DNA of 47,081 bases from Bryobacterales bacterium (GTDB taxonomy: Bacteria > Acidobacteriota > Terriglobia > Bryobacterales > Bryobacteraceae), in assembly GCA_003163855.1 (NCBI GenBank), contig PLRJ01000227.1:12805-59885 (forward strand), in the 5' to 3' direction. Made by a program: the position numbers and the translations under genes. Below are positions 13,145 through 32,036 of the stretch, piece after piece. Numbering within the stretch: position 1 is the stretch's first letter; every line of letters begins with the position of its first letter. The notes under the pieces are model-generated. The model searched no databases. It was not told the DNA's origin and saw only the letters and a list, made by a program, of their open reading frames with translations.

Positions 13145-16100
13145 ATGCTTACTGGACGAAGACTTATTAACAGCGGTTTGCTGTGCGCGTGGCTGGGCGC
13201 GGGATTAGCCCTTTATGGGCAAGCAACAGGTAGCATCTCCGGCACTGTAACGGACGCCACTGGCGCGGCAGCCGGCAACGTGAAGATTACCATCTCCGGC
13301 GAAGTCACGGGAACCAAACGCGAGACGACGACAGACAGCTCCGGCCATTACGTGGTGCCTTTGTTAGGTGTTGCCAACTATGACATCAAAGCGGAACTGA
13401 ATGGCTTTCAAGCTGCCGAGGAGAAGGACGTTCGTCTGCAGACGGATGAACATCGGGAAGTTGATTTTCGGCTGGTTCCGGCGTCAGTCTCGTCTACTGT
13501 CGAGGTGACCGGCACTGCGGTGGCTGTGCAAACCGCAAATCCAACGCTCGGCCAGGTAATTACCTCGCAACAAGTGGCCGACCTGCCGTTAAACGGACGT
13601 GACTTTGTGCAATTGGCTACTCTGACGCCAGGCACTACGGCCGAAACCAATCCGGGAAGTTTTTTTAACGGCGGACCAAGCAGCGAAGTGTCTGCACGCG
13701 GCTCGTTCTCTTTATCCGTCGGAGGTTCGCGCGCGAACTCTACCGACTGGCTGCTGGATGGTAACGACAATAACGAACTTACCGGCGGCGGCATCGCCAT
13801 ATTGCCATCTATTGATGCCATTCAGGAATTCAAAGTTCTTACCTATAACTACTCGGCCGAATTCGGCACGCGCGCCGGCCCGACTGTTCTTGTAACAACC
13901 AAGTCGGGTACAAATGCGCTTCATGGAACACTTTTCGAATTCTTCCGTAATACCAAGCTCGACGCTCGGAGTTTCTTTGCCACTTCAACCGAACAGTTCA
14001 ATCTGAATCAGTTTGGCGGTTCTGTGGGTGCGCCTATTAAGAAGGACAAAACTTTTATCTTCGCCGACATTCAGAATAAGTTTCAGCGGCACGGGATACC
14101 CTTCGAGGGCTTGGTTCCCAGCATAGCGATGCGCAACGGCGACTTCACCGACGACGCCTTCGGCAATAAGCGGAGTGGGTTTCTGACCAATCCCAACGTG
14201 GCCGGCAATCCTCCATTCGAGTGTAATTCAGCTGGAAACGCTATTCCGGCGGCGCCAGACGGTAGTCAATCAGGCGGCGTTCCTTGCAACAAGATTCCTT
14301 CGAACCTGATCAATCCCATTACGCAGAAGCTGATCAATCTGTATCCGCTACCGAACGCCGACAATTCGGCTCTCGGCTACAACTATGTCAGCGAGCCTGT
14401 GCGCAAATTGAATGAAGGCGAATTCGATGGCAGACTAGATCATAACTTCAGCAGCAACGATTACGCTTTCGCGCGCTTCAGCTACGATCAGGCAACCTCC
14501 TATGTTCCTGGCGGTTCACCTGGTTTTGCGGAAGCTAATCCATTTGCTAGTAATCAAGGCATCTTGAATCACGGGCGCAACTTTGCCCTTTCGGAGACGC
14601 ATGTTTTTTCAGGTAACACTGTTAATCAAATCAGCGCCGGCTACAACCGCATCTTCGATTACATCTCGTCGCAGGGAACCGGTAGCTGTATTTCCAAGGC
14701 GCTCGGCATCCCCGGAGCCAATATCGGCGGATATAGCTGCGGGCTTACGAGTGCTCAAATGGACGGGAACTACTGGTCATTGGGTGATCGCGGCTTCTCT
14801 CCTTTCCAGGGAGGCACCAACGTTTTCTCTGCGTCCGACTCTTTAGATATGGTGCGTGGAAATCACGACGTCAAGATTGGCGGAGGTGTTCGGGCCAATC
14901 AGATGAATATCGGGACGGAAGGTTTTCAGGACGGTTACTGGATCTATAGCGGCCTATGGACGAACGAACCAATGGCCGATCTGCTTCTTGGCCTGCCGAG
15001 CCTAGCGATCCACGACACAGCCTTCACCGGACCGGTCACGGGAAGGCGCTGGAAGCTTTTTCGTCCATTCATCGAGGACGACTGGCATGTATCGAAAAAT
15101 CTGACCCTAAACCTTGGCTTGGCCTGGGCGCTGGTTACACCTATTACAGAAGCGCATGACAGACAAGCAGACTTCAATCCAGCAACGGGAACCTTCCTGA
15201 TTGCAGGGCAGAATGCAGGACCTGCCGCAGGAATTCAAATGGATAGGACCGCGCTCGAACCTCGCCTTGGAGTCGCTTGGAAACCGTTTGGGAACTCGAA
15301 TACGGCAATTCGCGGCGGATATGCAATTTTTCACGACTCCTCATGGAATCAGGGTTCGCAAGGTCTATGGCAGAATCCTCCTTACTATGCCGAGTCCAAC
15401 CAATCCGCGTTCGGCTATTATTATCCTGATGGTTCCGGCCCGGTATACTGTACTTTTGCCACTGCAGCCTGCGCCACAAAATCTGGATTACCCCCGTCGG
15501 CTATTAGTGCCTCCAACGGTTTCCCGATTTTTACTGCCGCTCCCACGCCGGCAAGTTTTCAAGGCACTATTCTCTCCCAGAACCTAAACTTCAAACAAGG
15601 CCGAGTTCAGCAGTTCAATGTCAATATTGAGCATCAGTTACCCGGTCAAGTTGTGGTCACTGCCGGTTATGCAGGTTCCGTTAGTTCACATATTCTGATT
15701 GACGGGAATAACATCAATGTCCATTCTCCGTCCGCTTGCGGGATGGCTTCCGGGTATTCACTGGGTTGCGGAACTGGCAACTCCTACTTAGGTATTCCTT
15801 ACACAGCATTTCCTAACTCGATTATCGAAAACATCACAGATCAGGGAAGGGCGCATTACAACTCCTTGCAGATTAAGGCTGAAACCAAGAGTGAGACCAA
15901 AGGTATTTATGCGCTGATCGGTTACACGTATGCGAGAGCCTATGACAACGGGTTCTCCGACGGCTTGGGAAGCACCATCGGTGCAACCTACTATCCGCTC
16001 CCTAACTGGCAGAACCTGGATTGGGGGCTCTCACAAATCAACCTGAATCACAATTTCACTGCTAGCGTGATTTACGATTTACCGGTCGGCAAAGGGAAGA

Positions 16101-16594
16101 AATTCGGGAACTCATGGGCTCCCGCAGCCAACACGATTTTGGGTAACTGGCAGGTTACCGTTATTGAAAAGGCAACTTCGGGCTTCCCGCTGTTTATCGT
16201 AGATAGCGCGAATAACTCCGGTGTTAATTTCGAGAATAACGGAAACAGCCTGAACCGGCCGAATCAGACCTGCGGGCCACAGCCCACAAACCAGACATTG
16301 AGTGAGTTCTTTGTCACTTCCTGCTTCTCGGCGCCAGCGACTGGTCAACTGGGAAATGCTTCTCGCACTCCTTACTCAGGACCGAACTTCATTAATACTG
16401 ACTTTTCAGTGGTAAAGCACTTCCCCATAATGGAAGGCGCCCGTATCGATTTCCGGGCTGAGTTCTTCAACCTGTTTAACCATGCCCAGTTCGGACAGCC
16501 AGGTGTTGATATCAATGCGGGAAATTTCGGCGCCATAAGTTCCACGGTGAATAATCCTCGAGTGATCCAGTTCGCGATTAAGGCCGCTTTCTAA
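13145..16594 (+). CDS. Oar-like TonB-dependent receptor with carboxypeptidase-regulatory domain
   Basis: This 1,149-residue outer-membrane protein imports or binds a ligand, with energy from TonB/ExbBD. It has a signal peptide (~1-27, ending at LYGQA), an Ig-like carboxypeptidase regulatory domain (~28-110, GSISGTVTDATGAA), and a plug domain (~115-250) with LPLNGRDFVQL and the SRANSTDWLLDGNDN segment. A 22-strand-type barrel follows, and the C-terminus VIQFAIKAAF ends in Phe, the usual outer-membrane assembly signal. This is the expanded acidobacterial type likened to Oar and to SusC-like polymer receptors; the substrate is unknown. It has its own promoter at 13032. It ends 2 bp from the convergent TPR gene, leaving no room for a hairpin terminator between them. 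Confidence 0.93.
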   Translation: MLTGRRLINSGLLCAWLGAGLALYGQATGSISGTVTDATGAAAGNVKITISGEVTGTKRETTTDSSGHYVVPLLGVANYDIKAELNGFQAAEEKDVRLQTDEHREVDFRLVPASVSSTVEVTGTAVAVQTANPTLGQVITSQQVADLPLNGRDFVQLATLTPGTTAETNPGSFFNGGPSSEVSARGSFSLSVGGSRANSTDWLLDGNDNNELTGGGIAILPSIDAIQEFKVLTYNYSAEFGTRAGPTVLVTTKSGTNALHGTLFEFFRNTKLDARSFFATSTEQFNLNQFGGSVGAPIKKDKTFIFADIQNKFQRHGIPFEGLVPSIAMRNGDFTDDAFGNKRSGFLTNPNVAGNPPFECNSAGNAIPAAPDGSQSGGVPCNKIPSNLINPITQKLINLYPLPNADNSALGYNYVSEPVRKLNEGEFDGRLDHNFSSNDYAFARFSYDQATSYVPGGSPGFAEANPFASNQGILNHGRNFALSETHVFSGNTVNQISAGYNRIFDYISSQGTGSCISKALGIPGANIGGYSCGLTSAQMDGNYWSLGDRGFSPFQGGTNVFSASDSLDMVRGNHDVKIGGGVRANQMNIGTEGFQDGYWIYSGLWTNEPMADLLLGLPSLAIHDTAFTGPVTGRRWKLFRPFIEDDWHVSKNLTLNLGLAWALVTPITEAHDRQADFNPATGTFLIAGQNAGPAAGIQMDRTALEPRLGVAWKPFGNSNTAIRGGYAIFHDSSWNQGSQGLWQNPPYYAESNQSAFGYYYPDGSGPVYCTFATAACATKSGLPPSAISASNGFPIFTAAPTPASFQGTILSQNLNFKQGRVQQFNVNIEHQLPGQVVVTAGYAGSVSSHILIDGNNINVHSPSACGMASGYSLGCGTGNSYLGIPYTAFPNSIIENITDQGRAHYNSLQIKAETKSETKGIYALIGYTYARAYDNGFSDGLGSTIGATYYPLPNWQNLDWGLSQINLNHNFTASVIYDLPVGKGKKFGNSWAPAANTILGNWQVTVIEKATSGFPLFIVDSANNSGVNFENNGNSLNRPNQTCGPQPTNQTLSEFFVTSCFSAPATGQLGNASRTPYSGPNFINTDFSVVKHFPIMEGARIDFRAEFFNLFNHAQFGQPGVDINAGNFGAISSTVNNPRVIQFAIKAAF

Positions 16595-16596
16595 GG

Positions 16597-17976
16597 CTAT
16601 TGTGATTGACCGCGTAGCGCCACTACAAAGCGCTGCGTCTCACTTCTTTGTTGCTCAGCTTTACGGGCATTCTGCTCTGTCAGGTGCTCGTAAAGTTGGA
16701 ATTCGTGTTTGGCGTCGGAACTTTTCTCCTGAACCTTATAGATTTGAGCCAGCCTGTAATGGGCTTCCGGTTGCCCAGGATCAAGTTCCGCGGCTTTCCG
16801 TAGGCTTAAGAGCGCGGCGGGAAGATCTTTGAGGTCATATTGAACGGTACCCAACAACAGGTAAGCTTCAGCAAACCTCGAATCCAGCTTAACGGCTTTT
16901 TCTAGTAGTTGCATTACTTCTGGAGAGGAGTTCTCTCCATTTTTTGAGGCGACAGCATACAAGTAATTAGCCCATGGGTTGTCCGGTTGGAGTTGCGAAA
17001 AACGGCGCATGCGCGTTAGAAAACCTTGCAAGTGGATAATCTCGGATCGCCGAACTTTCCCCATGAATAGATACGGTTCGGGATTGGCAGGATTCAGGTC
17101 GCACGCTTGGAAGAAACGGGCTGCCGCCTGTTCATAAAAACCACGGGAATACAACGAAGCGGCTAGACCGAGCAACAGCCGAGTTGAAGCTGGATAAAGA
17201 TCATATCCTTTCGTAAAGACCTCGATAGCAGCTTCGGGCGCCAGATGGGTCAGCATCTCCGTACCTAAATCAAAAATGTTGGTCTCAGTCGGCTGAAGTT
17301 TGGCTGCAGTTTGATAAGCGTGAACGGCATCTAAGGATTTACCAACGCGTTCGCTTGCATCTCCCAAGAGATGAAAGGCCGCGGCACTCGATTTATCCAC
17401 GGCCAAAGCGCGCTGAACATAGGGAAGAGCGTCTTTACATTTGCCGTTTGTGACAAGCACTTGCGCAACCTCATAATTTGCCGAGAAACTGTGAGGTTCG
17501 GCTTCAGCGCGGTTAAGAAGTGCTGTTTCATCGACTGAGGTACTCAGGGCCTTATCCTTGCCCAAGGAGGCTGTGGCTTTTGTCAGCGCTTCGGAGGATC
17601 GGAGCACGGTATCAGAACCATGGCCGCCGCGGTATGTATTGTCGGTGACCCCAGCCACTGTGTATTTAGGCTCGTCGAAGAAGGCCGGCTGAAGCGTAAG
17701 ATCAATGGTTCTACTTTGTTGCGGACCAATCGTGAATGGATCAGCGGATTTGATTAAGAAGCCCGCAGCTTCTGCACGCAGGTGAAAAGTGCCATTCGGA
17801 ACCGAGTCAAAACGATAAGCGCCGTCCTTGTCGGTGCGGGTGCTCTGCAACGTTTGGGAGCCATCTTGCTGCAACGAAATGGTTACCGATGGCAGAGGAA
17901 CATTATTCGTGTCGCGAACACTGCCTTGAATCGTTGCTGTTTGGCCCAGCAATAAGAGCAGCAGAATTGAAGTCAT
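16597..17976 (-). CDS. Exported TPR protein with N-terminal carboxypeptidase-regulatory domain
   Basis: The 459-residue protein has a very short hydrophobic start (MTSILLLLLLGQ) that may act as a signal peptide. A carboxypeptidase-regulatory Ig-like domain follows (~14-98: IQGSVRDTNNVPLPSVTISL, GAYRFDSVPNGTFHLRAEAAGF), and then about seven TPR units (~165-450). The fold predicts a protein-protein scaffold at the periplasmic side, with no enzyme motif. Its ATG overlaps the stop of the FG-GAP/ASPIC gene (ATGA at 17976-17973), so it is the last gene of the four-gene minus-strand operon starting at 25694. The same Ig-like domain occurs in the convergent TonB receptor, which could reflect a shared envelope location. 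Confidence 0.85.
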   Translation of the reverse strand: MTSILLLLLLGQTATIQGSVRDTNNVPLPSVTISLQQDGSQTLQSTRTDKDGAYRFDSVPNGTFHLRAEAAGFLIKSADPFTIGPQQSRTIDLTLQPAFFDEPKYTVAGVTDNTYRGGHGSDTVLRSSEALTKATASLGKDKALSTSVDETALLNRAEAEPHSFSANYEVAQVLVTNGKCKDALPYVQRALAVDKSSAAAFHLLGDASERVGKSLDAVHAYQTAAKLQPTETNIFDLGTEMLTHLAPEAAIEVFTKGYDLYPASTRLLLGLAASLYSRGFYEQAAARFFQACDLNPANPEPYLFMGKVRRSEIIHLQGFLTRMRRFSQLQPDNPWANYLYAVASKNGENSSPEVMQLLEKAVKLDSRFAEAYLLLGTVQYDLKDLPAALLSLRKAAELDPGQPEAHYRLAQIYKVQEKSSDAKHEFQLYEHLTEQNARKAEQQRSETQRFVVALRGQSQ

Positions 17977-20900
17977 GGAATTTGCTCCAAGGCACGCTGC
18001 ACCAATGTGTCGCTTGGACTCTTCTTGAGAAACTCGGAGAGGAGAGCGCGAGCCTTGTTTGAATCGCCCTCTAAGACATAAACTCGAGCGAGATTAAGAT
18101 ACGCTTGATTGAATAGAGGCGCAACTCGAATGCACTCCTGGAATGCGGCCACAGCTTCGTCGCGGCGTCTTGTTCGGAGATATAAAATTCCCAGATTATT
18201 TAGCGCCTCCGGGTAATCCGGACGGTACTTCAGAGCTCGCTGCAGATAATCGTACGCCTTAGTGGAATCAGTTTGCGCAAACACCATGGCAAGGCTGTAG
18301 TTCGCTTCTGGATCATCCGGGCTCAGTTGTAGGAGCTGCTCCAGAGTTTTGCGGGCGTCTTCCCAACTTTTCTGCTGTCGATAAGCATTCCCGAGATTTA
18401 AAAGACCTATCGTGTAGTTGGGGTTGTCGTTTAAAGATGACTTGAAATAGCCTATAGCCGTTGCGAATTGGCCGGAACGGGTCGCGATAAGGCCCAGGTT
18501 GTTCCATGCATTGGAAACAGTATCGGGGTAGCCAGCCTTTGTGCTCGCAGCAACCTTGAAACTGGCTTGCGCATCCTCCACCTTCTCGAGCTTTAGATAA
18601 GCACTGCCCAAACCGTAGTGAGCTTCGGCGCTGTCCGGATCGTTTTGGACGGCTGACAAGAAGGCCGACTGGGATTGAAGATAAAGCCTTTTTTGGAAGA
18701 AAGCAGAACCCAGCGTCAGATAATTTCTTCCTCTTTCATATGTCTCACTGTTTCCGGGGAACGGAAGCGCTGACTTCTTGGCACCTTTGCAATCCCGCTC
18801 CACTGCGGCCAAGTCAAGCGAGCCCTGGTAAATCTTGACGATATCCCCCGCCATATTAATAAGAAAGGACGTCGGTAGAGTTAAATCTCGGTGCCGGTCG
18901 AAAAGATATCGATAGATTACCTTGTAGACGGCGATCGTCGTAGGATCGCTCACCTCGACGACCGTGAAAGGAAGGTCCCTTTTTGTCAAATCCAAGGGCG
19001 ATCGGTTGAAATTCAAGAGTAGAAACTTTCCGCGTGAGCTCTCAGGCGACGACAAGGGAGTAACGAGCCAAGTCTCTGCATCTGTTGGCAGTCGCTCGGA
19101 GGGTTGCTCCTGAAGAGCCGGTACTTCATCTGGTGCACGCAACGGCTCCATTAACGAAGGCGCGGGCATCGACTCCTCGAGAAATATTCTGTGGCTCACC
19201 GGAATTTCCGGGAAATGCAGGATCTTGCCGCTAGGCCATCGAACAGAGACGGAAACGGAACCTTTTGTCTCTCCAAGACCAAAGAAAAGCTCCTTACTGT
19301 GCTGTGACAAAAATCCAGAGCCCGCCTGCAGGAACTTCGTCTGCTTGCCGGATGCAGTCTCTACCGTGACGGCCGCGCCTATAGCATCGCGATTGCTACC
19401 GGTGCCACCTCGCAGACGTACAATCAGGGAAGCAGGTAAGTCAGACATAATGTTTCTCAGGAGACGCAACTGGGGCCCGTTGCGATTCTTGAGGAAGATC
19501 TCCTGGCGGCCGTCATGATTGAAGTCGGTTAGCGCAAATGATCGGCCGTCCTCCAGAAAATCAAGACCGATAACGCCAGAAACGTCGGTGAAAGTTCCAT
19601 CGCGGTTGTTGGCATAACAGACATTACGTTCGTAACCGCTCCAGCTGTAGTCGGAGCGGATGAGATCATTGATGGTCTGCCAACCCTGTTCGTACGCGCT
19701 AGCAGGTTTCACAGTGTCAGGAGAATTCGCCACCACCTGTCGCCAGAAGAAGCTGTTCAGGTCATCACGAACGGGACCCGACACCATTCCATTGGTTATG
19801 TACAGATCGGGATAACCATCGTGGTCAAAATCGATGGCGTCACTTGACCACGACCAACGTCCCATGGCGATGCCTGCTCTCGAAGTGACGTCGCGAAAAG
19901 TTCCATCGCCTGAGTTACGAAGCAGTGAGTTGCCCATGGCATGTTTGCGATCGAGCGATCGAGATTGCGGCGAGTTACTCTTCCCGAAGGCTTCCTGCAT
20001 GGTGATGCGCTGTCCTGCCGCAGTCCACATGTTCGCTACGTAAAGGTCCTGAGAACCATTGTTATCGTAATCGAGCCAGCTAACACTCATGCCGGCGCCC
20101 ACATCTTCCACCCCGCAATGCGCGGCAACATCGTCAAAGGTACCGTCGCCCCTGTTGCGATAAAGATTCTTACGGCCGAAGTCGTTTACGACATAAAGGT
20201 CAGGCCAACCGTCGCCATTAGAATCTCCCCAGCCGCAGCAGAAACTGTAGCGCGTATTGTTTTGATTCAAACCTGATTCAGCGGTCGCGTCACGAAATGT
20301 ACCGTCGCCATTGTTGCGCATCAGAAAATTGGGAGGTCCGTTTTCCGCGTCGTAGTAGGGCAGAGGGTAGTTGTACTGACCGCTGCCCTGATAAAAAGCG
20401 TAGAGACAGAAGTAAATATCGAGAAGTCCATCACGATTGTAATCCGCGGCGGCCGCGCCGGTGAATGTGCCCTTCGGAGGCGTGACAAAGCTAAAGGCGT
20501 CCCTCTTGAGCGAGAATTTGCCGTCCCCGTTGTTCTCGAACAGCAGGGGACCGTGATTCCGCACAATCACTACATCCTGTCTGCCTTTGTTGCTGAAGTC
20601 GGCAAATATCGCACACGAAGTGTTGTCCAGCAAGCCGAGATTTGACTTTTCAGTAATGTCTTCAAACGTGCCATCGCCCAGGTTGCGATACAAACGATTG
20701 GGCAAACCGGCGGGCTGACAAACATAGAGGTCGTCGAATCCATTTCCATCTATGTCGGCCACCGAAACGCCATTGTGGCCGTAGATGTCGATGCCGGAGG
20801 CAGCATCCATTACAGTTCGCCAATAATCGACTCCGCGAGCCAACTGCTCAGAAAAAGACGTGATTTTGGAAAAAGCGTGCAAGGCAATATCGACAAAGCA

Positions 20901-21458
20901 TGGTGCTGTAGTTCGAGTGCGAGTTTGTTCAGACACTTGCCAGAGCGACAGTTTGTAATTACGCCAATCCATCCGCCAACGGCCTGACCTTTGCTCACGG
21001 TAGAAGCCTTCTCCGCTACCCACAAACTGAAACTGCACCAGAGTCTCGAGGTTCTCCGGTGTGCCGCTGATCGAGGTGACTTCAAAGTCGGCTGCTTGAA
21101 GTTCCCTGAAACCATTAAAGTAAGCGTGCAAATCCTTCAGAAAGGCATCGGAGGGAACGAGAGACTGCGAATAGGTGTCGAGATGAATTTCGACAGAGCT
21201 TCCAATGCGCCGAACTAGTCTTGAAGTAGACGGCTTAAGCGAGGAACCTGAAAACTCAGGCCGCAGTAAATGCGTGATGGATTCGCCCCGGGTAGCTTTT
21301 AGAGCCGCTAATATCCGGGCAATCGCGTCGTGGTAAGTTTCCGAAACGAAATCATCAGAGCCGACTTGAAGATAATGCGAGTCCGCCCGGATGTTCGGAC
21401 GCAAAAACGCTAATGCAAGGGCCTGACAGCAGCGATGAAGAAAGTTGCGCCTACGAAT
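17973..21458 (-). CDS. Tat-exported CRTAC1-type FG-GAP/ASPIC-UnbV protein with Trx-like domain and TPR tail
   Basis: The product is ~1,161 residues if started at ATT 21458, or 1,143 from TTG 21404. Numbering here is from TTG 21404. Residues ~205-640 hold repeated FG-GAP/VCBS units (GVSVADIDGNGFDDLYV and DYDNNGSQDLYVANM types, each with a DxDxDG-like calcium loop and FRNxGDGTF). An ASPIC/UnbV domain lies at ~665-740 (RDAIGAAVTVET, VSVRWPSGK). Residues ~793-875 resemble a thioredoxin fold (LLLNFN, LPTSFLIN, GDIVKIYQG) but have no CxxC. The tail ~885-1140 is about seven TPRs. Upstream of the TTG the frame stays open and encodes RRRNFL followed by an Ala/Leu helix, a Tat-type signal. The only plausible codon before it is ATT, so I extended the gene and flag the start as unusual. 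It overlaps the downstream TPR gene by 4 bp. Confidence 0.85.
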   Translation of the reverse strand: MRRRNFLHRCCQALALAFLRPNIRADSHYLQVGSDDFVSETYHDAIARILAALKATRGESITHLLRPEFSGSSLKPSTSRLVRRIGSSVEIHLDTYSQSLVPSDAFLKDLHAYFNGFRELQAADFEVTSISGTPENLETLVQFQFVGSGEGFYREQRSGRWRMDWRNYKLSLWQVSEQTRTRTTAPCFVDIALHAFSKITSFSEQLARGVDYWRTVMDAASGIDIYGHNGVSVADIDGNGFDDLYVCQPAGLPNRLYRNLGDGTFEDITEKSNLGLLDNTSCAIFADFSNKGRQDVVIVRNHGPLLFENNGDGKFSLKRDAFSFVTPPKGTFTGAAAADYNRDGLLDIYFCLYAFYQGSGQYNYPLPYYDAENGPPNFLMRNNGDGTFRDATAESGLNQNNTRYSFCCGWGDSNGDGWPDLYVVNDFGRKNLYRNRGDGTFDDVAAHCGVEDVGAGMSVSWLDYDNNGSQDLYVANMWTAAGQRITMQEAFGKSNSPQSRSLDRKHAMGNSLLRNSGDGTFRDVTSRAGIAMGRWSWSSDAIDFDHDGYPDLYITNGMVSGPVRDDLNSFFWRQVVANSPDTVKPASAYEQGWQTINDLIRSDYSWSGYERNVCYANNRDGTFTDVSGVIGLDFLEDGRSFALTDFNHDGRQEIFLKNRNGPQLRLLRNIMSDLPASLIVRLRGGTGSNRDAIGAAVTVETASGKQTKFLQAGSGFLSQHSKELFFGLGETKGSVSVSVRWPSGKILHFPEIPVSHRIFLEESMPAPSLMEPLRAPDEVPALQEQPSERLPTDAETWLVTPLSSPESSRGKFLLLNFNRSPLDLTKRDLPFTVVEVSDPTTIAVYKVIYRYLFDRHRDLTLPTSFLINMAGDIVKIYQGSLDLAAVERDCKGAKKSALPFPGNSETYERGRNYLTLGSAFFQKRLYLQSQSAFLSAVQNDPDSAEAHYGLGSAYLKLEKVEDAQASFKVAASTKAGYPDTVSNAWNNLGLIATRSGQFATAIGYFKSSLNDNPNYTIGLLNLGNAYRQQKSWEDARKTLEQLLQLSPDDPEANYSLAMVFAQTDSTKAYDYLQRALKYRPDYPEALNNLGILYLRTRRRDEAVAAFQECIRVAPLFNQAYLNLARVYVLEGDSNKARALLSEFLKKSPSDTLVQRALEQIP

Positions 21459-21481: not shown

Positions 21482-21512
21482 ATTGTAAACCGGGATCACT
21501 GCCAATCGGCAA
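21482..21512 (-). promoter_or_regulatory. Weak internal promoter candidate upstream of the FG-GAP/ASPIC gene
   Basis: On the minus strand TTGCCG (21512-21507) is followed after 19 bp by TACAAT (21487-21482), 24 nt before the proposed ATT start. The spacer is longer than usual. The upstream gene ends at 21496 inside this element, so the downstream genes may also simply be read through. Confidence 0.2.
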
Positions 21513-24500
21513 GCGAGTCAACGAAGGCGGCCGAACCGTCGCGCAGCCAAGTGTCGAGTTGCGCCGGTTCTTTCAATTGTTGGCCGCGTTCGCGGGAAAC
21601 TAAGGCATAGCTGCAGCGTAAATCTTGCAGAGCAGTCATATCGACAAACAGCTTTTCAAACTGCGCAACAGGGAAAATGTCCTCCTGGCCTTTGCCCCAG
21701 CGCTTTTTAACGTCCTTCAAGGTGATGTAGCTTGGCATGCGCGCTGCCAGGTGTCGCGTAGCCGTCGCTACTTTTTCATTATCGTCAAGCTCTTCGCGCG
21801 TTAGTAAGAATGTGTTTAACAGTCGATCAATATCAATCCAGAAGGTGTTGCTGTTGTAGTAAGAAAGCAACGATTCCTGACGCTCAGACGGAAGCGCCAG
21901 CCCCTCAACAAGCCGCAAATGGCCGTCGAGCCGCGCTAATCCGCCGCCATGATCATCGATCTGACGGGCAATGACTTCCGCAGTAAGCGCAGATTCTTGT
22001 TTGATATGAAAACCAAGTAATCCCGGTTCGAGATTCGCGCCGACCGTATCGATATTGTGAACCATCAGGTGACGCACCTGCGGACGGATCTGCAATAGTT
22101 GCCGCAGCACGCCATTCCGTAGCATGTTGGCGATTTCATACCAGTGTCCTGTCGGATGCAGACACTGCAGCGGGATATTTTCTGTGTAGTCGGACCCCTC
22201 GCCTGCCATCGTTGCCCATTGAATAAGTGCAGTGCGAAGGCTGTCTCTCACCTTTTGCTTCTGCTCGTCAAGCACCTGTTGAGACATTTCTTCCCAGGCA
22301 AAGCGAAGGTCGCGCGCCATGGGAACAAAGCGCAGACCAATGGAGCGGCCGGGCGATAGAAATATCGGGCCAGTGTAGCCGTAATGATGCGCGCGCTTGA
22401 GGTGGGCTTGAATCGGTGAGTGTGTAAGGTAACTTGTCGTCACGACATGCGGCACGGGAACGCCAAACAAACGGCTGGAGCACCGGCTTTTTGCGAGGTG
22501 TAGTTCTAAGAAGCTGCGGTACTTGCCCGCGAACTTCGTAAAAGGGCTGAGCGCCTTCACTACTCCTGCTCCGCGCGTCCAGCGAGTGCCGGCGCCTCCA
22601 GCCAGCGACACCACCGCCACAGCGCCTGCCCGAAGTGCGTCCGAGCCTAACTCTTCCAACTCGGAGTCGACGCTGCGCTGGCTATCGAAAACATCTCCTG
22701 TAAGCGCGTCTTCAATCCTGGCTGTGATGGGTAGCCGGTTCTGAGCCAGGCCAATGGAACCGTTTTGCATTCCCGCGCGGATCTGTTCATGCTCCAGCGG
22801 ATCGAAGCCATTTTCCTTCAATAGATCTGCGAGGCTCTCGCTTTTTTCCCGGCCGGTTCGTTCGGAGGATGGAAGAAGACGATCAAACAGATCCTGCACA
22901 ATGCCAGAGTAAGCCTGCCGCGAACGTGAGGCGGCGCCAAGTCGATCGAGCTCAGCACGGCGCGAAGGCACCATAAAACGCGGATCCATCCGCAGCAGAG
23001 AAGGAACCACCAGCGAATAATAGCCCTCGGGCATCAAGCTGGCCTGACCAGTCAGGAGTTCGGCGAAAGTTCCGCGTTCATTAATGCGAAAGTCGTAAAC
23101 TAACGGATTGATCGCGAAAGGAACCGCATCTTCAAGCTCTCTCTTAGTTTGGAGCATGATTTCCTGCATCCGATCCTGCGCGTTAGCCTTTTGTTCAGGG
23201 TTGAATATAAAACCCATGCCTCCGCCCGCCATGCCACCCAGCATCCAAAAACCCCAGAAGTCAGCTTGCATCTCGGAGCGAGCACGAGCGATCAAAGTTT
23301 CCGAGTAAAGATTACTGGCCCAGGGAATAATGCTTTGAATCGGGCCGAAGAAATTACGCTCAGTGGCTAATCCGAGGGCAGGTATATCGCCGGCACCCAA
23401 GTCGCGCAAGACGTCATCGAGAATAGCGATAGCCTCATGCCGCGCGCGCCACTCCTTCGGAGATCGCAAAAGATACTTTTCAGTGACCATCTCCAGTACT
23501 GGGCCAACGTCCTGCGCCATGCCCCCATGAACGAGAACCAGACTACTCTGGAGTTTTTCACGGGCCTCTTGCGTGATCTCCGAGATGTGGAGTACCCGGT
23601 GGGTGGGCAAGAGGCGGCCTCGACTGATTCCAAATTCCGGGTCGCCCTCCTGCGCTGCGCTTCCTTCAATAAGCTTGATTCCCGGCCATACGCCGCCCGA
23701 ATCCTGCCAGCCTCCACCGGAACCTCCCAGCCACTCGCCCAGGATGGCGCGGGCGGCAATCAAACGGCGATCCGATTCCGCCAACGCACCGGTAAGCGTA
23801 TGTGTCTGATTGGTGGCTCGCATGCAGACCGACACGATTCCCGCTAGCAAATTGGTAGAGACGGCTAGGCGCGATCCTTTAGGAATGTTTTTCACGCAGC
23901 TAACAATCTCAACCCCTCGACCAGGCCCTGCTAAATGGCTAAGTAACGAACTAACCCGCTGGGAGGCGCCCTCCATGGCCGGCGGCACAAGGCCCGATGC
24001 AATAACAGCAGCCTTAAGAAGGCCCAGGTAATCGCGCGCAAAGTCGAATAACTCTGCAAACGTGGTGATGTCCGCTGTGGCGCCCAAATCAACGCTGGTC
24101 AGGCGTAACACCGGTTCGTCGATGATGCGAAAGTACACCTCCACGGGCGGTTCAGGTGCGCTCGAATTGTCTCCGCGAACACAGAGGTCAATGGAAACGT
24201 TAAGCACTTTCGCGCCTTCTGGAAAATCCATTCCGAGAAAGAAGATGTCGCTCCAGGCGCTATGAGTCAGATCCATGCGCACGGGAGTGGACTCTTTCAG
24301 GATTGGGTAAGAATCGTCGATGGGTGACCGCACCAGAAGTTCAGGACAGACACACAGCGGATAATCGTCAGGATGACCAATGCGCGCCATCCATTGATTG
24401 CCGCGCACGGAACGAACACTGCGGCGGACTTGGTCGGCAAGCGTCTTGAATCCCAGCCCGCGATAAGCGGCGGAAAAAGCGCTGCAGACGGCAGCGTTCA

Positions 24501-24819
24501 GGCCAGCCGACTTCACGTGACGCTGAATTAGGTCGATGGCTTCTTCGAAGCGGCGTTTCAGCAGATGAGCTCGAACCTCAAACCGGATAAATCCAACGGC
24601 GGGAATATCGGTCCGGTGCGACAGATGAAAACGGTAAATGGTAGCGAGAAAAAAGTGTGCGCGAACTCGATGATACAGATTGTCGCTTGATCTCCAGAAG
24701 CGGTCGAGAGCCTCGCACTCCGCGAGCAAATCGCTAGTCGACAAAGCGCTTGCAATTTCGTCCACAGATCGATTTCTAATTGCTGGATCAGCTGAGGTGA
24801 TGGTCCGCAGAAGTTCCAT
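21496..24819 (-). CDS. Fused fucokinase-like GHMP kinase and UDPGP-type sugar-1-phosphate nucleotidyltransferase
   Basis: The protein has ~1,107 residues and is cytoplasmic. After a helical region (~1-150), residues ~180-580 match fucokinase-type GHMP kinases: MDLTHSAWSD and KVLNVSIDL for the first motif, IPKGSRLAVSTN (~312) for the ATP motif PKGSGLGTSS, GGGWQDSGGVWPGIKL (~367), and the glycine-rich LGGMAGGGMGFIF (~528). Residues ~640-1107 match the UDPGP pyrophosphorylase family: AVVSLAGGAGTRW (~735), a Lys in VVKAL (~755), HPTGHWYEI, HNIDTVGANLEP (~921) and NSNTFWI (~990). Together they could phosphorylate a sugar at C1 and then activate it to an NDP-sugar. Known bifunctional FKP/FKGP enzymes have the opposite order and a different pyrophosphorylase domain. 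The kinase ATP motif is degenerate, so kinase activity is uncertain. I chose ATG 24819, which overlaps the GalU-like stop (TGATG). Confidence 0.82.
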   Translation of the reverse strand: MELLRTITSADPAIRNRSVDEIASALSTSDLLAECEALDRFWRSSDNLYHRVRAHFFLATIYRFHLSHRTDIPAVGFIRFEVRAHLLKRRFEEAIDLIQRHVKSAGLNAAVCSAFSAAYRGLGFKTLADQVRRSVRSVRGNQWMARIGHPDDYPLCVCPELLVRSPIDDSYPILKESTPVRMDLTHSAWSDIFFLGMDFPEGAKVLNVSIDLCVRGDNSSAPEPPVEVYFRIIDEPVLRLTSVDLGATADITTFAELFDFARDYLGLLKAAVIASGLVPPAMEGASQRVSSLLSHLAGPGRGVEIVSCVKNIPKGSRLAVSTNLLAGIVSVCMRATNQTHTLTGALAESDRRLIAARAILGEWLGGSGGGWQDSGGVWPGIKLIEGSAAQEGDPEFGISRGRLLPTHRVLHISEITQEAREKLQSSLVLVHGGMAQDVGPVLEMVTEKYLLRSPKEWRARHEAIAILDDVLRDLGAGDIPALGLATERNFFGPIQSIIPWASNLYSETLIARARSEMQADFWGFWMLGGMAGGGMGFIFNPEQKANAQDRMQEIMLQTKRELEDAVPFAINPLVYDFRINERGTFAELLTGQASLMPEGYYSLVVPSLLRMDPRFMVPSRRAELDRLGAASRSRQAYSGIVQDLFDRLLPSSERTGREKSESLADLLKENGFDPLEHEQIRAGMQNGSIGLAQNRLPITARIEDALTGDVFDSQRSVDSELEELGSDALRAGAVAVVSLAGGAGTRWTRGAGVVKALSPFTKFAGKYRSFLELHLAKSRCSSRLFGVPVPHVVTTSYLTHSPIQAHLKRAHHYGYTGPIFLSPGRSIGLRFVPMARDLRFAWEEMSQQVLDEQKQKVRDSLRTALIQWATMAGEGSDYTENIPLQCLHPTGHWYEIANMLRNGVLRQLLQIRPQVRHLMVHNIDTVGANLEPGLLGFHIKQESALTAEVIARQIDDHGGGLARLDGHLRLVEGLALPSERQESLLSYYNSNTFWIDIDRLLNTFLLTREELDDNEKVATATRHLAARMPSYITLKDVKKRWGKGQEDIFPVAQFEKLFVDMTALQDLRCSYALVSRERGQQLKEPAQLDTWLRDGSAAFVDSLADWQ

Positions 24820-25694
24820 CAATGTTCCAGGGGAGAGGCGGGCATGTCGGACTTCTGCAGCGCGATAATCTCAAGCAACTGAGCCAGTACACCGTCACGG
24901 TCGCGGCCGTTCATGGCGAGTGCCAGCTGAGCTTGAAACAGTCCATACTTAGCACCAACGTCGTATCGGCGGCCGGTCTGTTCAAAAGCCAGATACTGTT
25001 CGTGTCCAGCCAGCTCCGACAGTACCTCCGAAACCGTTACTTTACGTCCGGCCTCCTGATGAGTACCCAGGATCTCGAAAAACGTGGGCGTAAGCACATG
25101 CATGCCAAAGAAGCAGAGATAGTGCCCGACTCGCAGGCCGGAAACGATCAAGTTTTGTTCAGCTTCCGTGGGCGTTGGCTTCTCCACCACTCGTTCAATT
25201 CGGTAAAGATTTTGTTTTCCATGAAGCGGTTGCCCTCCTATAGTCCCGTAGAGAGGGAGTAGAGTTTCTCGTGTGGGCACAACCGCCGAAACAGCACAGC
25301 CCTCTTCTGTAGCCGCGCGCACAAGATCGCGCGCCGAGTAAACGCCGTTGCTCGATACATAAAGATGATCTCCAACTAAGTGGAGGAATGGGTCGTCTGC
25401 CGTAAACGGCCTTGCTGAATAGAGGGCGTCGGCGTAACCGGCAGGTTTAACTTGCTGAAGAAAGCGGACGGAAGGATCGCCGGCAGCTTGGGCATACGCG
25501 GATTCGTCGCCGGGCGAGATTACAACTGCAATCTGATCGATACCGGCTCGCCGGATCTCGTCGATAATGATACGAAGCACCGTTTTCTCGGAACCGTCAC
25601 GGTCAATAACTGATTGCAGGGGAAGGGTGCGCTGGTTAGGCGCTGCCGCCGTAACCACGGCTTTGCTAATTTTCATTTCTGGCGCACTTGCCAT
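24819..25694 (-). CDS. GalU/RfbA-like nucleotidyltransferase with degenerate nucleotide-binding loop
   Basis: The 291-residue protein has the length and order of a GalU-type glucose-1-phosphate uridylyltransferase: KAVVTAAAPNQRTLPL at the N-terminus, FLQQVKPAGYADALYSA, FLHLVGDHLYV, RVVEKPTP, a GHYLCFFGMHVLTPTFFEIL strand region and RRYDVGAKYGLFQAQLAL near the C-terminus. The signature loop GxGTRxxPxTK reads APNQRTLPLQS, so both glycines, the Thr and the Lys are missing. The metal Asp-Asp of the active site is GDH. The fold is clear, but the usual catalysis is doubtful; a regulatory or substrate-binding role beside the UDPGP fusion is possible. It is the first gene of the minus-strand operon and is translationally coupled to the fusion. 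It diverges from the ABC exporter across 53 bp. Confidence 0.82.
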   Translation of the reverse strand: MASAPEMKISKAVVTAAAPNQRTLPLQSVIDRDGSEKTVLRIIIDEIRRAGIDQIAVVISPGDESAYAQAAGDPSVRFLQQVKPAGYADALYSARPFTADDPFLHLVGDHLYVSSNGVYSARDLVRAATEEGCAVSAVVPTRETLLPLYGTIGGQPLHGKQNLYRIERVVEKPTPTEAEQNLIVSGLRVGHYLCFFGMHVLTPTFFEILGTHQEAGRKVTVSEVLSELAGHEQYLAFEQTGRRYDVGAKYGLFQAQLALAMNGRDRDGVLAQLLEIIALQKSDMPASPLEH

Positions 25695-28472: not shown

Positions 28473-31400
28473 TTGTTTTACTTTTTGGTGAAATTCCTCT
28501 GCCTGCTAGTGCTGCTGAGTACCGATGGTCTCTCTGCGCAAGCCGTCGTTTCCTACGGCGGATCGGTGCGTGCGGCAGATCAGTTCGTGCCGGGCGCTAC
28601 CGTAACTGCGACGCAAGGCAGTTCCAAAGTAATTGCCTATACGGATGACTCAGGCCGCTTCGCGCTTAAGCTCGCGCCCGGCGTTTGGAACGTGCAGGTG
28701 GACATGTTCGGTTTTACCCCTGTTCACGAAACCGTAACTATCGGCGGTAAGGCTATCTACAAGGATTGGACGCTCGAGATGCCTCGGCTTGACGACGGCG
28801 GTGCTGCAGCCGCAGCGAAACCGAAGACACAGCAGGCGCAAGCGAACGGGCGCACTCGCGGCTACGGGGCGCGCAACCGTCAAGGACAGGGCGGCGACCG
28901 TCCCTCGTTCAGCCGTAACGGAGCCGGGCAAAATCAAACCGCGCCTCCCGTCCTAAATGCGCAAGGACCGCGGCCGGGCTATCAAAGTGCCCAAGTGCGG
29001 GCTGCTGACAACAATACCGAGGCATTGGCGCAAGCGGCGGCCGATGCGGCTGCGCCTGGTTTAGCCGCCGATGCGGACGAATCATTGTTGGTGAATGGCA
29101 GCACCAGCGGAGGCTTAGCGCAATCTAGCGATGACGAAGCGCGCCGGCAACGGATGATGAACGGACCGGGCGGAGGCGGGCCGGGCGGAGGCGGGCCGGG
29201 CGGCGGTGGACCCAACGGTGCGCTCGGTCTCGGCTCCTCGCTTGGTGTCCCGCCGGGCATGAGTGCTCCGGGTGCCGACAGCCTTGGACTCGGTGGATTA
29301 GGAACAAGCGCTTTGAACGCTGGTTTTGGGCAGCAGAGCGGCCCGGGTGGTGGTTTTGGCGGCGGCTTTGGCGGTCCCGATGGCGGTGGTCCGGGTGGGG
29401 CCGGTGGAGGCTTTGGAGGTGGCGGAGGCGGAGGCGGAGCTGGTCGCGGAGGCGGTGGTGGTGGTCGTGGTGGCGGCCGGGGAGGCAACAATGCCAACCG
29501 GCGTGGACCCTATAACGGCCAATACGCCAGCTTCGGCAACCGGAGACGTCAACAGCAGCAGCTCTCGGGTTCGATCTTCGGCAATCTCGAAAATTCTGCG
29601 CTTGATGCCGCGCCTTTTTCTTTGAACGGCAAGCCCGAAGCCAAGCCTTCTTATTCGGACCTGCGCTTCGGTTTGAACATTGGCGGACCAGTGGTGATTC
29701 CCAAAATCATCCATTGGACCCGCGCCAGCTTTTACTTCACCTATCAGGGCACCCGCAACAAGAATCCATACAGTTCAGCTGCGGCGGTTCCAACACTCGC
29801 CGAACGTAGCGGTGATTTCTCCGGCATCTCCAGCATCATTTACGATCCGCTTTCAGGATCGCCATTCGCCGGGAACATTATTCCAGCGTCAAGGATTAAT
29901 TCCGCGTCACTGGGTCTGCTGCCTTTATTTCCTAATCCGATGTTTGCCGGAATCACTCAGAATTATCAGTTGGTCACATCGGTGCCGAACAATTCCAACA
30001 ACATTGGCGTCCGCCTGAATGCGCCGCTCAGCAATAAGGATCGGCTGAATACCAACGTTCAGGTGCAGGAGCGTAATTCAGCGACGCAGCAACTGTTCGG
30101 TTATCGAGACACCGGAAGCGGCCAAGGCCTTAGCTCCTCGCTGGGATGGAGCCACAGCTTCAAACCAAGGTTCAACAACAGTGCCACCCTTACTTTTAGC
30201 CGCAATACCAGCGTCACCACTCCTTACTTCGCCTACAAAGACAACATCGAAGGCAATCTAGGCATCAATGGAACTTTGCAAACTCCATTCGATTACGGAC
30301 CGCCCACTCTTTCATTCACGAATTTCGGTACCTTGAGTGACGGCACGCCGTCGCGCTCAGTGGGCCAGACGGTCAACTTTACTGACACCATCAGCTACGT
30401 GCTGCATCGCAAACACAATCTGCAGTTTGGCTATCTGTTGCGGAAGCTTCAATCGAACACCACCAATTATTCCAACGCACGGGGTTCCTACAGCTTCAGC
30501 GGATTGCTGACCAGCGAATTGAACGCGCAAGGCCAACCGGTGCAGGGTTCAGGTTTCGATTTTGCCGATTATCTTTTGGCGCTGCCGCAATCCACCAGCC
30601 TGAAGTACGGCGAAAACAACGATTACTATCGTGGTTGGTCGACGGGTTGGTACGCGCAGGACGATTGGCGTCCGCTGCGTGGGTTGTCGTTCAACGTCGG
30701 TTTGCGCTATGAGTACTTTGCGCCTTATACCGAGTTGTACAACCATCTCGCGAATTTGGTTGTGAATTCCGATGTGACTGCTGTGACTGTGGTAACTCCG
30801 GGACAGAGTGGAACAAACCTGCCCAGCAGTCTGGTGCGGCCCGATACGCACGCGTTTTCACCCCGCCTTGGCTTCGCATGGCGCCCTGGCGCCAGTCGCG
30901 ACTTGGTCGTTCGAGGTGGTTACAGCATTTTCTACACCGGTTCGGTCTACTCCCAGATCGCCAGCCAGTTAGGTACGCAGCCGCCGTATGCCAACAACCT
31001 GTCGCTTACAACCAGTACGGCCAGTTTGCTGACCCTGCAAAACGGTTTTACGATTATTCCATCGCAGAATATTGTGAATACGTTTGGCATCGATCCGAAT
31101 TTCAAGCTGCCCTATGCGCAAACCTGGGCGCTTGCAGTTCAGAACGCACTGCCGCACGGGTTCCTCGTGGAGACGGAATACATCGGGACTAAAGGCACCG
31201 ACTTGGGCATTGTGGAACAGCCGAATCGCCCCGTGGACGGCGCCTCCGTCTTAAACGCGCAGGAGGTGCTGCGGATTCCCGATGCTACTTCGTTCAGTTA
31301 TGAGAGCTCGCAGGGAAACTCGATATTTCACGCGGGCCAAGTGCGATTGACCAGACGTTTCTCCACCGGCATCTCCGGAAATCTGTTGTACACGTATTCC

Positions 31401-32036
31401 AAGTCGATCGACGACGTCTCGAGTTTCAATGGCCTCGGCGGTACAGATGTGCAGTTCATCAATAATCTACGTCTGGAGCGTGGGCTTTCGTCATTCGACC
31501 AGCGCCATCGTCTTTCCGGCACCTTTCTGCTGTCTTCTCCCGTGGGTGTGCATGGCATGCTGCGCAACGCCGGATGGAAGACCGCAGCGCTGGCAGGCTG
31601 GACCGTGCAAGGAACCTTGACAGCGGCTACGGGAACGCCATTGACAGCGGTTGTCGGCGGTAATTTATCGAACACAGGAGGCCTGGCAAACTCAGGCGGG
31701 TCGCGCGCCGAAGCCACCGGCCTTCCTATCCAATCCAGTGCCTATCCCTATTTCAACCTGCTAGCTTTCACCACGCCTGTATCGGGCCAATTCGGCGACG
31801 CCGGGCGCGATACCATTCCCGGGCCCTTTCAGGTCGGCTTCAACGCCGCTCTTAACAGAGCCTTCCGCTTTGGCGACAGCCGCCGCCAGTTGCAGTTGCG
31901 CCTCAGCACCACCAATGCCCTCAACCACGTGGTTGTAACTAACTTCGGAACCACGGTGAACTCGTCAACATATGGTTTGGCTACGGCCGCTTCGGGTACC
32001 CGCACCGTGCAGTTGCTTTTGCGCTTTAGCTTCTAA
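28473..32036 (+). CDS. Gly-rich acidobacterial TonB-dependent receptor-like outer-membrane protein, plug apparently missing
   Basis: This has 1,187 residues from TTG 28473; a GTG at 28488 is an alternative start and neither has a good ribosome site. A signal peptide (to LSAQA) precedes a carboxypeptidase-regulatory domain (~25-105). A Gln/Ala/Gly-rich low-complexity region runs from ~107 to ~360, including PGGGG repeats and long Gly/Arg runs. The barrel begins at SLNGKPEAKPSYSDLRFGLNIGGP and continues with many amphipathic strands to the C-terminal VQLLLRFSF, a typical outer-membrane end. The conserved plug landmarks of the first receptor (LPLNGRDF, the SRANSTDWLLDG type) are not found; only a short ESLLVNGSTSGGL remains at that place. 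The substrate is unknown. It is followed after 3 bp by the VWFA gene, an arrangement I have seen as typical of Acidobacteria. Confidence 0.88.
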   Translation: MFYFLVKFLCLLVLLSTDGLSAQAVVSYGGSVRAADQFVPGATVTATQGSSKVIAYTDDSGRFALKLAPGVWNVQVDMFGFTPVHETVTIGGKAIYKDWTLEMPRLDDGGAAAAAKPKTQQAQANGRTRGYGARNRQGQGGDRPSFSRNGAGQNQTAPPVLNAQGPRPGYQSAQVRAADNNTEALAQAAADAAAPGLAADADESLLVNGSTSGGLAQSSDDEARRQRMMNGPGGGGPGGGGPGGGGPNGALGLGSSLGVPPGMSAPGADSLGLGGLGTSALNAGFGQQSGPGGGFGGGFGGPDGGGPGGAGGGFGGGGGGGGAGRGGGGGGRGGGRGGNNANRRGPYNGQYASFGNRRRQQQQLSGSIFGNLENSALDAAPFSLNGKPEAKPSYSDLRFGLNIGGPVVIPKIIHWTRASFYFTYQGTRNKNPYSSAAAVPTLAERSGDFSGISSIIYDPLSGSPFAGNIIPASRINSASLGLLPLFPNPMFAGITQNYQLVTSVPNNSNNIGVRLNAPLSNKDRLNTNVQVQERNSATQQLFGYRDTGSGQGLSSSLGWSHSFKPRFNNSATLTFSRNTSVTTPYFAYKDNIEGNLGINGTLQTPFDYGPPTLSFTNFGTLSDGTPSRSVGQTVNFTDTISYVLHRKHNLQFGYLLRKLQSNTTNYSNARGSYSFSGLLTSELNAQGQPVQGSGFDFADYLLALPQSTSLKYGENNDYYRGWSTGWYAQDDWRPLRGLSFNVGLRYEYFAPYTELYNHLANLVVNSDVTAVTVVTPGQSGTNLPSSLVRPDTHAFSPRLGFAWRPGASRDLVVRGGYSIFYTGSVYSQIASQLGTQPPYANNLSLTTSTASLLTLQNGFTIIPSQNIVNTFGIDPNFKLPYAQTWALAVQNALPHGFLVETEYIGTKGTDLGIVEQPNRPVDGASVLNAQEVLRIPDATSFSYESSQGNSIFHAGQVRLTRRFSTGISGNLLYTYSKSIDDVSSFNGLGGTDVQFINNLRLERGLSSFDQRHRLSGTFLLSSPVGVHGMLRNAGWKTAALAGWTVQGTLTAATGTPLTAVVGGNLSNTGGLANSGGSRAEATGLPIQSSAYPYFNLLAFTTPVSGQFGDAGRDTIPGPFQVGFNAALNRAFRFGDSRRQLQLRLSTTNALNHVVVTNFGTTVNSSTYGLATAASGTRTVQLLLRFSF
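29166..29210 (+). repeat. 15-bp tandem repeat, three copies, encoding PGGGG
   Basis: Two identical units CCGGGCGGAGGCGGG (29166-29180 and 29181-29195) are followed by a third diverged unit ending GGCGGTGGA (29196-29210). They lie in frame in the Gly-rich linker of the TonB receptor, so unit gain or loss would keep the frame. Confidence 0.9.

Follow-up and report, generated by a model that had tools for sequence, protein, structure and literature searches.

A kinase-UDPGP fusion and its GalU-like partner as a possible two-protein sugar-activation unit in six bacterial phyla

The window analyzed here is a stretch of 47,081 nucleotides from a Bryobacterales bacterium (phylum Acidobacteriota; assembly GCA_003163855.1, contig PLRJ01000227.1, positions 12,805 to 59,885). 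Its minus strand codes for two adjacent proteins: a large fusion of an FKP-type kinase half with a UDPGP-type pyrophosphorylase half and, directly upstream, a smaller protein related to the UTP-glucose-1-phosphate uridylyltransferase GalU, hereafter the partner (Table 1). The open reading frame (ORF) of the fusion runs from an ATG at 24819 through 1107 codons to a stop codon at 21496-21498, and this ATG and the stop codon of the gene upstream have a single base in common (TGATG). A preliminary description, made from the sequence alone, had recognized a fucokinase-type kinase followed by a UDPGP-type pyrophosphorylase and proposed a one-protein route from a free, unnamed sugar to a nucleoside diphosphate (NDP) sugar. 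All the motifs quoted there are present in the minus-strand frame of 1107 amino acids; the order of the halves and the length of ~1,107 residues hold up, as do both domain identities (NF009948, FKP chains and Foldseek for the kinase; PF01704 and Foldseek for the UDPGP half). To these we add two features: an invariant, non-canonical donor loop in the kinase half and a constant, apparently dead GalU-like partner.

Table 1. Features of the fusion and partner genes, in window coordinates
Feature	Position	Strand	Remarks
Kinase-UDPGP fusion gene	21496..24819	minus	1107 amino acids; 83 further homologues aligned over >1000 residues
Fusion residues 1-170	24310..24819	minus	Entirely helical, conserved N-terminus; unmatched in Pfam
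FKP-type (GHMP fold) kinase half, residues 171-635	22915..24309	minus	Boundaries approximate; from profile and Foldseek
ATP-loop replacement KGSRLAVST, residues 314-322	23854..23880	minus	Position of FKP AGSGLGTSS; invariant 84/84
GGGWQD, residues 368-373	23701..23718	minus	Sugar and catalytic-base motif (FKP G759, Q761, D762)
UDPGP-type pyrophosphorylase half, residues 663-1107	21499..22833	minus	PF01704, Foldseek to UAP/UGP; start approximate
GxG[ST]R loop and K755, residues 742-755	22555..22596	minus	Aligns with UGP nucleotide loop and Lys
HNID, residues 921-924	22048..22059	minus	Aligns with UGP (S)NAD
PVA, residues 1050-1052	21664..21672	minus	Site of the UGP 'PVK' lysine
Partner gene, GalU-like, 291 amino acids	24819..25694	minus	One-base overlap with fusion gene
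Partner residues 15-34	25593..25652	minus	GxG[TS]R loop lost; lysine-bearing segment of relatives missing

The fusion is a real family, spread over six phyla. A scan of genome contigs, of which the best 80 of 149 confirmed loci were kept, recovered homologues whose best segments are 55-72% identical, and the 396 genomes of the window's own phylum contain five fusion loci, the window's gene among them. The resulting alignment comprises 84 sequences including that of the window (L098, with a local match of <1000 residues, was left out; four of the 84 rows fall short of 1080 residues). Going by the titles of their records, 50 of these rows belong to the Verrucomicrobiota, 10 to the Planctomycetota, eight to the Acidobacteriota, five each to the Chloroflexota and the Bacteroidota and one to the Fibrobacterota; five rows, the window and the loci of its own phylum, stand outside this tally. 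The FastTree phylogeny of the fusion largely follows the phyla, requiring seven changes against a minimum of five. An assembly or frame artefact can be rejected, as 84 homologues share the reading frame and the architecture over >1000 residues; so can a decaying pseudogene, as 241 of the 1107 columns, including the entire altered loop, have the same residue in 83 or more of the 84 rows. A further copy of the pair, outside the 84, lies on a Hymenobacter volaticus plasmid (L139; NZ_CP095065.1, 51136-54447): its partner is 41% identical, and its fusion (52% identical) occurs in four pieces over three reading frames and looks broken. Of this pair, the plasmid's gene table, which is incomplete, lists only the partner, as a 'sugar phosphate nucleotidyltransferase'.

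The kinase half is recognized only via FKP and by its fold. Residues 177-393 (in a numbering one above the count from the ATG) match the FKP kinase chains 9iip, 5yys and 9iit (E 3.8e-13 to 2e-12), and the FKP model NF009948 matches residues 178-395 (E 4.6e-21), with a whole-protein score of 74.3 bits that lies below the curated cut-off of 721 bits. An AlphaFold2 model of the fusion, built with 50 aligned sequences, has a predicted local distance difference test (pLDDT) of 87.5 and a predicted template-modeling score (pTM) of 0.87; in Foldseek its kinase half matches the FKP kinase 9iip (TMt 0.82) and the heptokinase WcbL 4usk (TMt 0.81). The N-terminal half of the protein thus appears, in the predicted structure, to adopt the GHMP fold that the preliminary description had expected and that the kinase part of FKP possesses, according to a study of FKP (PMC11982464). 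By the same study, which specifies the FKP active-site residues and a glycine-rich loop at 712-720 (AGSGLGTSS), R181, W189, D191, E362, Q372 and D373 of the fusion correspond to FKP R592, W599, D601, E751, Q761 and D762, and all six are identical in 84/84 rows. The loop itself differs: GSGLGTSS, found in all ten aligned FKP-type control ORFs from the same phylum, occurs in none of the 84 fusions, every one of which has GSRLAVST. Since this replacement is invariant and S321 and T322 retain the hydroxyls of FKP S719 and S720 in 84/84 rows, the aligned sequences indicate that the loop is altered yet strongly constrained, which excludes decay. N-terminal to the kinase half, the FKP-type pyrophosphorylase is not found; in its place stand 170 unmatched residues, helical in the AlphaFold2 model and conserved in the homologue alignment, for which a Pfam scan at E up to 1 returned no family.

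In the C-terminal half, Pfam PF01704 (UDPGP) matches with E 1.7e-13 and 50.5 bits, against a gathering cut-off of 22; its solved relatives are UGP structures (8c0b and others), and Foldseek places this half of the model with UAP/UGP structures. When its motifs are aligned against five bacterial UGP-like proteins, G742, R746, K755, G891, H892, N922 and D924 prove identical in 84/84 fusions; the second loop glycine, G744, is present in 81 of 84, and residue 745 is serine in 78 and threonine in six. UGP has a lysine in this loop region and another in its 'PVK' motif, both of which we take to be important for its catalysis. On these alignments, the fusion retains the catalytic and most of the sugar-contact residues of FKP together with the UDPGP nucleotide loop.

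The partner is modeled with the GalU/YngB fold (AlphaFold2 pLDDT 95), and scores 83.4 bits for the GalU model TIGR01099, below the cut-off of 326.8. The loop signature GxG[TS]R is present in none of its 65 aligned homologues, and the partner also lacks a lysine-bearing segment kept by its relatives (as in ...SKATKKELFP...), the lysine of which is presumably catalytic; EKP and R243 are present in 65/65. As judged from the alignment, neither the nucleotidyltransferase loop nor the lysine segment survives in the partner, which is most likely catalytically dead.

Fusion and partner go together both on the contig and in the genome. A partner ORF of adequate length lies upstream of the fusion in 65 of the 84 loci, with Chthoniobacter flavus (L026) as an example of a laboratory strain in which the two genes adjoin, and is shortened by the contig end in one more; six loci are too near a contig end to judge (L087, among these, shows a partial partner match at the edge), and 12 have no upstream partner although at least 736 upstream bases are present. 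In all 12 unlinked cases the partner is found elsewhere in the genome (E <1e-127). We sampled 288 genomes from the phylum of G401, the Verrucomicrobiales genome of locus L059: with E 1e-30 as the limit, the fusion is present in 26 of them. The partner is found in precisely this set, where its E values are 1.8e-99 or better, whereas the remaining matches do not go beyond 4.4e-58. In the window's phylum the fusion is present in five of 396 genomes and the partner in the same five, the next match being 1.3e-58. Hence, the fusion occurs with the partner in 31 of 31 sampled fusion-bearing genomes (Fisher p 1.5e-37 and 1.3e-11 for the sets of 288 and 396 genomes, both uncorrected for kinship). The partner profile was built from partners beside fusions, some out of the same genomes, so that the telling half of this result is that no fusion-less genome comes near it. 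The weaker matches are different proteins. Distances among fusions and among partners are also correlated (Mantel r 0.865, with none of 2000 shuffles as high). These comparisons of sequences show the fusion and the GalU-like partner to be one conserved, co-occurring unit.

The proposal of a one-protein route is weakened by these results: it stands insofar as kinase and pyrophosphorylase halves do occur in one protein, but the fusion is found only with the GalU-like partner (31/31) and has an ATP loop unlike that of FKP (84/84). As the two proteins co-occur, we see a two-protein unit rather than a one-protein route.

The relatives of the partner lie close to sugar kinases as well. In a separate bacterial family of ~640 residues, a GHMP kinase comes first and an intact GalU-like transferase second. 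Two of the three such relatives scanned are GHMP-GalU fusions with both domains found by Pfam (L119:645-2567, minus strand, and L122:454-2376, plus strand), so the kinase-first order is not unique to the kinase-UDPGP fusion; the third, L118, is cut at its contig start and shows the transferase only. GFGTR and the lysine are intact in L118-L122. Among free transferases, all six scanned with Pfam (L140, L141, L142, L145, L147 and L148) adjoin a GHMP kinase gene; for L143, L144 and L146, judged by the gene listing, no GHMP kinase neighbor appears. Because transferases akin to the partner thus repeatedly team up with GHMP sugar kinases, their arrangement lends support to a role of the pair in sugar-1-phosphate chemistry. 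In this family, the UDPGP half may have taken over nucleotidyl transfer, with the partner left as a regulator. A functional exchange between the fusion and the weaker partner-like transferases was considered and rejected: the two share one genome (G495) of 26 and 40, an overlap that is below expectation and not significant (Fisher p 0.15).

Taking the retained residues together, the most likely activity of the pair is the conversion of a fucose-like sugar into an NDP-sugar, the fucose-contact residues kept in the kinase half suggesting the substrate. The kinase half would phosphorylate the C1 hydroxyl of a sugar with L-fucose-like hydroxyl geometry, with D373 as the base and the remodeled phosphate-donor loop at its service; the UDPGP half would then couple the resulting sugar-1-phosphate with a nucleoside triphosphate (probably UTP) into an NDP-sugar. 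The partner would be a non-catalytic subunit that binds the sugar-phosphate or the NDP-sugar and regulates or scaffolds the fusion, by analogy with GMPPA, which PMC11228364 describes as a non-catalytic paralogue able to bind GDP-mannose and to interact with GMPPB. We favor this two-protein sugar-activation explanation as a whole only tentatively, with somewhat less than even confidence. A stronger form of it, in which the nucleotide sites have been remodeled throughout—the non-canonical loop using a non-ATP donor or channeling from a bound sugar-phosphate, the UDPGP half lacking one of a pair of conserved lysines, and a dead yet obligate GalU subunit completing an enzyme for an NDP-sugar new to these phyla—is a rather doubtful possibility.

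Several observations weigh against sugar activation by the pair. A Pfam scan of the kinase half alone, at E up to 1, gives no hit to the GHMP models (GHMP_kinases_N/C). Within its active site, the FKP fucose contact T602 is replaced by isoleucine in 84/84 fusions, and the ATP loop has G715 changed to R, G717 to A and T718 to V in every fusion; residues 316-319 of this loop are modeled at pLDDT <50. In the UDPGP half, the site of the 'PVK' lysine is occupied by A, T, C, S, M or V, and by lysine in none of the 83 rows that reach it. Finally, the neighborhoods of the fusion loci conserve nothing besides the pair, and no neighbor names a pathway.

The changed loop is also the starting point of the foremost rival explanation, under which the kinase half is no longer an ATP kinase: R317 would serve another donor, for example pyrophosphate, or would sense sugar-1-phosphate, leaving nucleotide chemistry to the UDPGP half alone. 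The contrast between GSRLAVST in 84/84 fusions and GSGLGTSS in 10/10 controls speaks for it, as does the parallel loss of the nucleotide loop in the partner (GxG[TS]R in 0/65); yet the general base D373, E362, R181 and the loop hydroxyls of S321 and T322 are kept in 84/84, as for phosphoryl transfer, and we consider this rival unlikely, though to be taken seriously.

An isofunctional replacement of FKP, converting L-fucose to GDP-fucose with a UDPGP half that uses GTP, would account for the FKP sugar-contact residues and the FKP-like fold of the kinase half, but it does not sit well with the change of T602 to isoleucine or with the distribution of FKP itself. In the phylum of G401, an FKP-model match of at least 400 bits, a line of our own choice, occurs in 11 of 26 fusion-bearing and 35 of 262 other genomes (Fisher p 0.0007), and a match over the curated cut-off in nine of 26 and 22 of 262; with kinship and genome size uncontrolled in these counts, the association may stem from lineage or genome size. 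In the window's phylum, three of the five fusion genomes have a second, FKP-type match; profile searches of the window's own genome and phylum gave no such match in that genome. Because fusion genomes often also carry an FKP-type match, the unit does not simply replace FKP, and a mutually exclusive substitution is excluded; a replacement in function is accordingly quite improbable. Pyrophosphorylases are reversible, and the pair could run catabolically, the UDPGP half using pyrophosphate to split an NDP-sugar and the kinase-like half handling the sugar-1-phosphate, in keeping with the altered nucleotide loops of the kinase half and the partner. No sequence feature favors that direction, and the pair has no further conserved neighbor, whether catabolic or of any other kind; we hold this to be the least probable of the readings.

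The gene-neighborhoods offer little beyond the pair. Grouping of the genes around the fusions returns the pair in 76 and 51 loci, followed by ORF groups in eight and seven loci, none on the fusion strand; because the examples lie across the partner or the fusion, we take these for antisense ORFs. The remaining recurrent groups reach at most four loci, and no larger cluster naming a sugar was seen, the flanks being mixed. Around the unlinked partners, the few genes that recur do so in no more than four further genomes, which look closely related. The pair is unlikely to be the cell's source of UDP-glucose, because the window's genome also encodes a canonical GalU, with a score of 374 bits (cut-off 326.8). 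PADLOC gave no match, and a role in anti-phage defence was rejected.

Elsewhere in the window, an FG-GAP/UnbV_ASPIC/TPR protein of 1143 residues (17973-21404, minus strand) lies immediately downstream of the fusion in the same orientation and does not recur beside the pair at other loci. The pair is flanked by two large outer-membrane beta-barrel proteins (13145-16594 and 28473-32036, both plus strand), each combining PF25183 with a carboxypeptidase-regulatory domain. On the plus strand there are also a fusion of NanE (N-acetylmannosamine-6-phosphate epimerase) with a ROK domain in one protein of 526 residues (117-1697) and a Radical SAM-like protein, under the Pfam cut-off, adjoining a fusion of DUF4130 with uracil-DNA-glycosylase (9533-12159).

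If the two-protein explanation is true, an unnamed sugar-activation system is common to the Verrucomicrobiota, Planctomycetota, Acidobacteriota, Chloroflexota, Bacteroidota and Fibrobacterota, a fucokinase-type enzyme operates with an altered donor loop, and a pseudo-nucleotidyltransferase has been retained as its constant partner. The pair is widely conserved. It is directly testable, as both proteins are specified by single genes that go together in all 31 sampled genomes with the fusion.

A search of the open PubMed Central literature for the kinase-UDPGP fusion or its kin, with subscription papers and preprints outside its reach, found no description of the fusion among the titles, abstract beginnings and passages covered, and its architecture appears undescribed there; PMC6329318, searched by term, contributed nothing relevant. 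The closest counterpart of the fusion is FKP (PRK13412; PDB 5YYS, 9IIT, 9IIP), which shares a homologous kinase half with the same catalytic and most of the same sugar-contact residues and likewise takes a sugar to an NDP-sugar in a single protein. FKP, however, has its pyrophosphorylase first, of another family, and a GSGLGTSS loop, whereas the fusion has the UDPGP domain last, a GSRLAVST loop, an additional helical region at the N-terminus and a partner protein that co-occurs with it. With the UDPGP family (UGP, UAP/AGX) the C-terminal half shares the GxG[ST] loop, the Lys and the GH and NxD motifs; it differs from UGP in the fused kinase, the missing 'PVK' lysine, a W or F (63 and 21 of 84) at the second G of UGP's GHG, and an insertion between the loop and the GH motif. 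The partner, for its part, shares the fold, EKP and R243 with GalU/YngB and lacks their GxG[TS]R and lysine segment. In zebrafish, a glucuronokinase/putative UDP-glucuronic acid pyrophosphorylase joins a GHMP kinase to a bacterial-type nucleotidyltransferase for UDP-sugar salvage (PMC3938481); there the transferase comes first and is of a short bacterial type, and the kinase is of the glucuronokinase type, unlike the fusion of the window. The GHMP-GalU family (L119, L122) has the reverse of this zebrafish order. GMPPA and GMPPB have no kinase domain and belong to a different subfamily. As a non-catalytic nucleotidyltransferase paralogue teamed with a pyrophosphorylase (PMC11228364), they provide the analogy for the putative role of the partner.

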